From a virus, in the IMG/VR virus record IMGVR_UViG_3300027841_000001, positions 1-49,948 of that record: a stretch of DNA of 49,948 nt; one strand, given 5' to 3'. The position numbers were made by a program, and so were the translations under genes. The notes beneath the pieces were generated by a model. The model saw only the letters and a program-made list of their open reading frames with translations, did no database searches and was not told the DNA's origin. Below are positions 9,096 through 9,886 of this stretch, piece after piece. Numbering within the stretch: position 1 is the stretch's first letter; every line of letters begins with the position of its first letter.

Positions 9096-9886
9096 ATGAT
9101 TCAACCACTTATTGACGCAGATTAGATGTTTTGCGCTATGAGGTAGGGTACGCTGCGGAAACGGGTTGGCAACAGCCCGGTTTCCCTAATTTCGATTATG
9201 TAGCAGAGCTATTAGATAATAGAATTGCTAACATGTGTGCGATAGTGGAGGCTACAGAGCCACCTATTCTCTATCTCACAGGGAAAGGAAATTTCAGAAA
9301 TGAAATTGCTAAACGTACTCCTTATAAAGAACGTCCTAGCGTAAAGCCTTGGCATTTCAAGAACATCACTGCGTATATGAAAGGGAAGTATAATGTCATC
9401 GTCTCAGAAGGAATGGAAGCAGATGACCTTATGGCCATCGAGCAAACCAGACGACCTGGAGAAACCATCATCTGTACAAGAGATAAAGACCTTAGACAAG
9501 TTCCCGGATGGCATTACGGATGGGAGCTTGGAAATCAACCGCAATTTGGCCCTATTGAAGTCGATGATTTTGGAAAGATCGAACTATCGAAAGATAGAAA
9601 AGCCATTAAAGGATATGGCCTTCTCTTCTTCTACGCCCAATGCCTCACAGGGGATAGGGTGGATACAATCCCAGGACTTAATGGAACAGGGCCTGTTAAA
9701 GCCTTTGAAATCCTAGAAGGTAGTGTGGATAGTATGGATGCGTTTAATTGCGTCCTAGGGGCGTATAGAGGGGTGTATGGGCCTGATGCAGAGAAAGAAT
9801 TGCTTGAGCAAGGAAGGCTATTATGGATGACGAGAGAATTGGACGAAGCGGGGAATCCGGTCCTTTGGGAGATACCCGGTGGTTAA
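9096..9886 (+). CDS. 5'-3' exonuclease (FEN/T7 gp6-like) with an internal 5-nt frame break
   Basis: A strong ribosome site (AAAGGAGG) precedes the ATG at 9096, which encodes MIQPLIDAD and then meets TAG at 9123. The rest continues in another frame from GTT at 9128 (VLRYEVGYAAETGW...). Skipping 5 bases from GAT (9120) to GAT (9125) would give a 261-aa protein in which IDADVLRY aligns with the N-terminal metal-binding motif of this family (T7 gp6 VMDGDWLVF). Further motifs are EGMEADDLMA, CTRDKDL and LTGDRVDTIPG. A TTG at 9131 could start a shorter product, but it would lack the catalytic Asp. Programmed bypass, -1 frameshift, mutation and sequence error remain possible. Confidence 0.8.

Follow-up and report, generated by a model that had tools for sequence, protein, structure and literature searches.

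A 2016 review named T4 gene 60 and the mitochondrion of one yeast as the established natural cases of translational bypassing; it listed Streptomyces phage Hau3 as a candidate and left the origin of bypass sites open (PMC5009743). Parts established or proposed for the gene 60 system include matched codons, a stop codon occupying the A site and a 5' stem-loop that works as a motor behind the ribosome, and synthetic stop-hops, in which matched codons flank a stop, are also known (PMC5009743). The locus described here is the FEN exonuclease gene of a virus represented by an entire 49,948-base IMG/VR record (referred to below as the window), in which the start and the body of the gene lie in different frames.

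The locus shares with T4 gene 60/MobA an HNH insertion in an essential replication gene beside a non-coding gap, and with gene 60 the stop after the take-off codon, the matched codons (here GAT/GAT), the 5' stem-loop and a gap proposed as protection from the nuclease (PMC5009743, PMC3014915, PMC2988022). However, the gap is 50 nt long in gene 60 and 4-8 nt here; the KKYK nascent-peptide signal of gene 60 lies about 30 residues before take-off, whereas the nine codons that precede the gap in the window are too few for a signal of this type; the FEN hairpin includes the start codon; and the FEN cassette gives a second, recoded start instead of splitting the protein. Moreover, the FEN gaps occur in at least 10 phages, with varied scars and at least three HNH types, and the hop is predicted from sequence. 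The layout of gene 60 invoked in the initial annotation of the locus holds for the stop and the GAT/GAT match, and the parallel extends beyond what was then noted, to a homing-endonuclease cassette, a 5' hairpin and occurrence in a dozen phages; the peptide signal is lacking and the gap size differs.

Three other systems are close. In the synthetic stop-hops, 9 nt are decoded as one amino acid; CTT-TAG-CTC in loci L060 and L114 and CTG-TGA-CTA in L144 and L152 show precisely this arrangement, with codons read by one tRNA, and the window has the same form in 8 nt. Unlike these constructs, the FEN case is natural, concerns an apparently essential gene and has an upstream hairpin. The mob genes (mobE in nrdA of Aeh1) are likewise promoterless HNH genes in a critical motif of a nucleotide or replication gene, with hairpins at initiation sites (PMC2988022, PMC3014915); the Aeh1 gene is split, whereas FEN would keep its full-length reading through the duplicated recoded start and the gap. 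Finally, the mitochondrial byps of Magnusiomyces capitatus are many short skipped inserts whose landing codons are not always matched (PMC5009743), but they are 81 sites in one mitochondrial genome, and no such link to an endonuclease or a hairpin has been described for them.

The exonuclease locus of the window

The annotated close relatives of the window are Zobellviridae. The features of the locus, all on the + strand, are as follows.

8370..9050, +: upstream neighbour gene, PHROG 862, function unknown
9053..9115, +: leader ORF of 20 codons, MKNMIRHRFGKEGVNDSTTY and stop, what is left, at the 3' end, of an HNH endonuclease gene that has been deleted
9082..9089, +: Shine-Dalgarno sequence AAAGGAGG of the re-created FEN start
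9090..9118, +: predicted RNA hairpin, about -10.7 kcal/mol, co-varying among loci
9090-9099, +: 5' arm of the hairpin, GCGTCAATGA, including the FEN start codon
9109-9118, +: 3' arm of the hairpin, TTATTGACGC, ending 1 nt 5' of the take-off codon
9096..9125, +: re-created FEN start, ATG at 9096, MIQPLIDAD then TAG
9120..9122, +: proposed take-off codon GAT (Asp, the second D of DxD)
9123..9127, +: 5-nt gap TAGAT relative to uninterrupted relatives, opening with UAG, same in L012
9123-9125, +: TAG stop directly 3' of the take-off GAT
9125-9127, +: proposed landing codon GAT, closing the gap
9128..9886, +: FEN body VLRYEVGYAAE..., PHROG 107 exonuclease, in a frame other than that of ATG 9096; stop at 9884-9886

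The body matches the PHROG 107 exonuclease with E=4e-57. The start at ATG 9096, the TAG after MIQPLIDAD and the change of frame from 9128 had all been placed correctly in the initial annotation, and the arrangement is not a chance one, as a 23-nt stretch, CCACTTATTGACGCAGATTAGAT, is identical in the independent contig L012, whose FEN body has 69% protein identity. Three features were added by the present analysis: the hairpin that takes in the start codon, the remnant of an HNH gene a little way upstream, and recurrence of the break in relatives. The leader MKNMIRHRFGKEGVNDSTTY matches the C-terminus CHIIRHSIGKEGVDENSTY of the HNH protein encoded directly upstream of FEN in L012, each followed by a stop; on this comparison, the window has lost the HNH body and keeps only its tail (9053-9115). 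The leader ORF crosses the hairpin and ends at TGA 9113-9115, the same TGA as that of the HNH tail.

The first Asp that follows strand 1 coordinates metal in FEN enzymes. Since a PDB sequence search matched only the C-terminal helix-hairpin part, a structure model was used. T4 RNase H, T5 FEN and E. coli ExoIX all match the AlphaFold model of an uninterrupted relative, L003 (pLDDT 92), in which residues 2-6 form strand 1 and helix 1 begins at residue 7. Across 16 relatives, neither D6 nor D8 of MQCLVDADVLRYE varies. The break comes immediately behind D8, just past beta-strand 1 and within the first turn of helix 1; intact relatives have no insertion in this turn. Initiation at TTG 9131 would, as initially argued, cost the protein an essential Asp: the first beta-strand and both invariant Asp would be dropped, which makes this start unlikely, the more so as L012, L114 and L144 have no close in-frame ATG, GTG or TTG.

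A second HNH gene (9879-10268) overlaps the 3' end of FEN; it is found in nearly all relatives and therefore looks like a core gene and not a recent insertion. The DNA polymerase gene of the window has the same cassette layout (5528-6067): a remnant of the old start, ICVGDLEA (5528-5553), is followed by an HNH gene (5560-6039) and a new start at ATG 6023, KICFFDLEAD, whose codons near the DxE motif have changed mostly synonymously. The new polymerase start is in frame, without a gap.

Recurrence of the break and its association with HNH genes

FEN loci were gathered from IMG/VR and GenBank phages, yielding 116 distinct loci with visible 5' ends. The DxD motif is in the body frame in 104 of them, including L070, which was scored automatically as lacking the motif, has RIDADL and was counted as intact by eye; the remaining 12 are broken. 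The initial annotation had proposed a comparison with homologous phages for the same gap: it recurs in L012, and ten more breaks, made by other sequences, occur at the same place; 104 of the 116 are uninterrupted. All 12 breaks lie at most four codons after the second Asp of the catalytic DxD, with 9-18 codons before the gap (9 in the window), and in every case removal of the gap restores exactly the length of intact relatives. The extra sequence measures 4-8 nt in ten loci and 1 nt in two. The take-off codon, the gap and the codon at which the body resumes are listed below.

Window: GAT, TAGAT, GTT
L012: GAT, TAGAT, ATT
L005: GAC, TAGTC, GTC
L130: GAT, TCAC, GTC
L114: CTT, TAGCTC, AGC
L060: CTT, TAGCTC, CTG
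L144: CTG, TGACTA, TAT
L152: CTG, TGACTA, GTT
L199 (Phriendly): CTT, TGACCTA, CGT
L056: ATT, TGAAGGTC, TTA
L031: CTT, C, TAT
L044: CCT, T, TAT

A stop follows the take-off codon directly in nine of the 12 loci (TAG 9123 in the window). The landing codon matches in five or six of the 12: take-off and landing codons are identical in the window and L012, and are read by one tRNA in L060, L114, L144 and L152. The codons differ in L005 (GAC/GTC), L056 (ATT/GTC) and L130 (GAT/CAC, with no stop beside the gap). The 1-nt excess of L031 and L044, each a single contig, could be an error or an ordinary +1 shift. A Shine-Dalgarno sequence is kept in all 12 loci (AAGGAGG in ten, AGGAGG or AAGGGG in the other two).

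The scar of L130 and 900 surrounding bases are identical in four metagenome records (L128, L129, L130 and L133), and Phriendly, an isolated phage of Vibrio natriegens sequenced at 66.7-fold coverage (PMC6776788), has the same layout as the window. The scar moves together with its cassette: L060 and L114 both carry CTT-TAG-CTC, although their FEN bodies share only about half of their sequence. Conversely, the bodies of L060 and L061 are nearly identical, with the gap and cassette in L060 and not in L061. Both observations are at most indirect signs that the uninserted allele is cleaved and receives a copy of the cassette. No description of such a layout was found in literature searches, and a search of genome contigs for prophage relatives yielded none. 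A degenerate pattern scan of viral contigs gave zero matches, yet missed L012, which fits the pattern locally, so that this zero carries no weight. In Vibrio phage PS32B.2 (L147, 508-1299), FEN is annotated as two genes, with an in-frame stop between the EADD and RDKD motifs after which the frame resumes; this split has no connection with the HNH site and might reflect decay, readthrough or an error.

Relatives without an insertion have a FEN start that shares bases with the stop of the upstream gene (TAATG), and the distance from stop to body is mostly 24 nt. An HNH gene lies between the upstream neighbour and FEN in ten of the 12 broken loci (in L060 only its 3' end is seen, at the contig edge); the other two are the window, with an HNH remnant only, and L044, with a non-HNH gene. 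The latter (2584-2970) resembles by eye a DUF5664-type protein and begins with a possible remnant of a FEN start, MQKG; this locus has a weak hairpin and the 1-nt excess. Altogether 17 distinct FENs have an HNH gene or its tail directly upstream, a gene absent from the ancestral layout. Eleven of these 17 are broken (counting the window remnant), versus one of about 98 others, an association with a Fisher P of about 1e-9 to 2e-9 against a conservative 75 intact controls; the upstream search relied on four HNH queries of our own and on annotations, by which an unrelated HNH type before an intact FEN could be missed.

At least three HNH types occur at FEN among the broken loci: a zinc-type family (L012, L031, L056, L130, L144, L152 and Phriendly), an HNH_3-like type (L005) and a NUMOD4-like type (L114 and L060). 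FEN is in frame behind an HNH gene in L029, L049, Klebsiella phage Asterion (L146), E. coli phages ECBP2 and Bas93 (L196/L197), L198 and L208; as six HNH-preceded FENs are in frame, the cassette does not need a gap. The old FEN start is still seen at the 5' end of several cassettes, as VRQPLIDADVLR- continuing into HNH in L005, MQPLIDG-KVCTVC in L130, MMKCLIDAE-LWADIEDYDG in L114, and MRQPLLDAD with a short tail and a stop in L012. Another FEN start, equipped with a strong Shine-Dalgarno sequence, adjoins or overlaps the 3' end of HNH. These sequences support an origin of the break from the cassette.

Several intact loci have peculiarities of their own. In Vibrio phage VPp1 (L204, 791-1161), about 370 nt without an annotated gene separate the upstream neighbour from FEN, unlike in BA6, and are possibly the site of an earlier insertion. 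The FEN start codon is TTG in L030 and L208, and FEN apparently starts at ATT after a strong Shine-Dalgarno sequence in Salinivibrio phage CW02 (L213, around 680) and in L049 (around 2974); the apparent ATT starts of these intact genes suggest that low FEN expression is favoured.

The re-created start and the hairpin

Comparison of new and old starts points to maintenance of the new start as protein-coding sequence. Five codons are changed in L130, all synonymously (P 5e-5), and all five changes in L114 are also synonymous (no random set as good in 20,000). Between Phriendly and its close relative vB_VpP_BA6, the codons before the gap differ by five changes, again all synonymous (P 4e-4), in addition to the 7 nt of the gap and 6 nt forming a hairpin arm. 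L005 has two amino-acid changes among ten nucleotide changes (P 6e-4), and the L012 sequence is too short to tell (P 0.07). The FEN bodies, judged from dN/dS of 0.10-0.17 in five broken/comparison pairs, are under purifying selection: 0.13 for the window and L012 (dS near saturation), 0.13 for L005/L014, 0.11 for Phriendly/BA6, 0.17 for L114/L117, and 0.10 for L060/L061. A start conserved as protein, a retained Shine-Dalgarno sequence and a conserved body, with the break between them, imply that ribosomes cross the break.

In the predicted stem, the stretch around the new start codon is base-paired with the DxD codons, and the stem stops at the take-off codon or beside it. Its arms are CCATCAATG/CATTGATGG in L005, CCGTCAATG/CATTGACGG in L130, GAATGTC/GACATTC in L114, GTATGTCG/TGACATAC in L060 and GAATGTCGCA/TGCGACATTC in Phriendly; the hairpin is weaker in L152, L031 and L044. 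The median hairpin score is 17.25 in broken loci versus 8.5 in 93 intact ones (P 1.7e-7, the loci being not fully independent). Synonymous-codon resampling is uninformative here, since it leaves the leader unchanged and has little freedom in the 3' arm, most of which is set by the protein. Leaders were swapped between loci instead: own arms scored 16.8 and between-locus swaps 11.7, with none of 100,000 permutations as good. Fold z-scores of single sequences were modest. The comparisons thus argue for a co-varying hairpin, which may assist the hop or might only regulate initiation.

Explanations of the break and their implications

On balance, and with modest confidence, we think that a short programmed ribosome hop, assisted by the 5' hairpin, produces FEN from a mobile cassette similar to T4 MobA/gene 60. 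The cassette inserts into FEN genes at the catalytic DxD codons, and the old FEN start serves as the start of its HNH gene. At its 3' end it brings another FEN start, recoded for the most part synonymously and preceded by a strong ribosome site; a 4-8 nt non-coding gap, usually opened by a stop, separates this start from the FEN body. Translation of the leader or HNH frame would traverse the hairpin and terminate in or near it, presumably freeing the FEN start. In the window, the ribosome would read MIQPLIDAD, reach GAT (9120) with UAG in the A site, release, slide 5 nt and re-pair on GAT (9125), yielding ...LIDAD-VLRYE.... The hairpin at 9090-9118 could close behind the ribosome, pulling the mRNA and favouring the forward slide, as proposed for T4 gene 60. 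The gap and the recoded codons plausibly guard the gene from HNH cleavage, again as proposed for gene 60; alternatively, the gap could serve as a brake on FEN. The hop, its efficiency, the role of the hairpin and the protection are all inferred from sequence comparison.

A different kind of recoding, leaving FEN about two residues longer after DxD, is unlikely. It would combine a -1 shift in the window (DAD-L-D-VLRY, also considered in the initial annotation), a +1 shift at CUU-UGA-C in Phriendly, similar to that of RF2, and UAG or UGA readthrough elsewhere, and has the merit that a two-residue insert would be common to the window, L012 and L005 (-1), L060, L114, L144 and L152 (readthrough) and Phriendly (+1); CTT TGA C in Phriendly is indeed the RF2 shift sequence, and L031 and L044 are compatible with a simple +1 shift. 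However, GCA GAT TAG in the window contains no slippery heptamer and tRNA-Asp cannot re-pair on AGA, which speaks against the -1 shift; no suppressor tRNA was found among the six tRNAs of the window; the two added residues would sit in the first turn of helix 1; and a single site would have had to acquire recoding of three different types. Splicing of an intron between the old start and the body, which would suit L012 and L005, was rejected because the remnant on the left has decayed in L031, L044, L056, L049 and L114 and because a full new start is present with its own Shine-Dalgarno sequence. Readthrough from the HNH frame into the body, which share a frame in the window, L012 and L005, would give a product without LIDAD and is not general.

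Nor do we think it probable that FEN is inactivated by the cassette or reduced to a truncated, non-catalytic product of a downstream start, with broken alleles that are short-lived losers or have another role. Such alleles are a minority, and several databases annotate only a shortened ORF (Phriendly, T2S1). Against this stand the low dN/dS of the bodies, the protein sequence of the new start, kept while its codons change, the Shine-Dalgarno sequence retained in 12 of 12 loci, the fixation of the L130 allele in four assemblies and the persistence of the gap in the window after HNH loss; moreover, no ATG, GTG or TTG follows the break closely in L012, L114 or L144, and a protein begun downstream would be without strand 1 and the two invariant Asp. 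That ribosomes bound at the Shine-Dalgarno sequence skip the hairpin and initiate just after it, much as a hairpin in T4 genes 25 and 38 brings the Shine-Dalgarno sequence close to the start codon, giving a FEN without its first strand, is very improbable: structure-bridged initiation is already known (PMC3014915) and the hairpin lies directly between the Shine-Dalgarno sequence and the body in most broken loci, but L012, L005, L114, L144 and Phriendly have no body-frame ATG, GTG or TTG close after it, and the selected LIDxD codons would be discarded. Least credible of all is a sequencing or assembly error. Although the window and most relatives are metagenome contigs, the same 5-nt scar is present in both the window and L012, and the breaks track HNH insertion; error does not explain the set, because a scar repeats identically in four assemblies and the layout recurs in an isolate with 66.7-fold coverage.

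Among the explanations considered, bypass appears the best, and the mini-bypass of the initial annotation remains the best fit to the comparative evidence, probably as a short-gap variant of T4 MobA/gene 60 and not a full member of that system. Hopping between matched codons, however, is not assertable for the whole set, because L005, L130 and L056 have no matching landing codon.

Short gaps at a single position, linked to the insertion of homing endonucleases, thus occur in at least 10 phages, and intact sister genes are available for comparison (L060/L061). We give equal weight to either side of a broader claim, namely that several unrelated types of phage HNH cassette have repeatedly evolved a recoded start, a start-codon hairpin and a 4-8 nt stop-containing gap, with FEN made only by short programmed hops; these would be the first recurrent hops of +4 to +8, true stop-hops among them, to occur naturally in bacterial viruses. 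As Phriendly infects the fast-growing Vibrio natriegens, natural short-gap hopping and its drive by a hairpin are directly testable. Should the hop prove to be unused, it would be just as puzzling that an apparently essential nuclease gene keeps a start that is selected yet broken. The proteins that gene finders now annotate at such loci are shortened and probably inactive.
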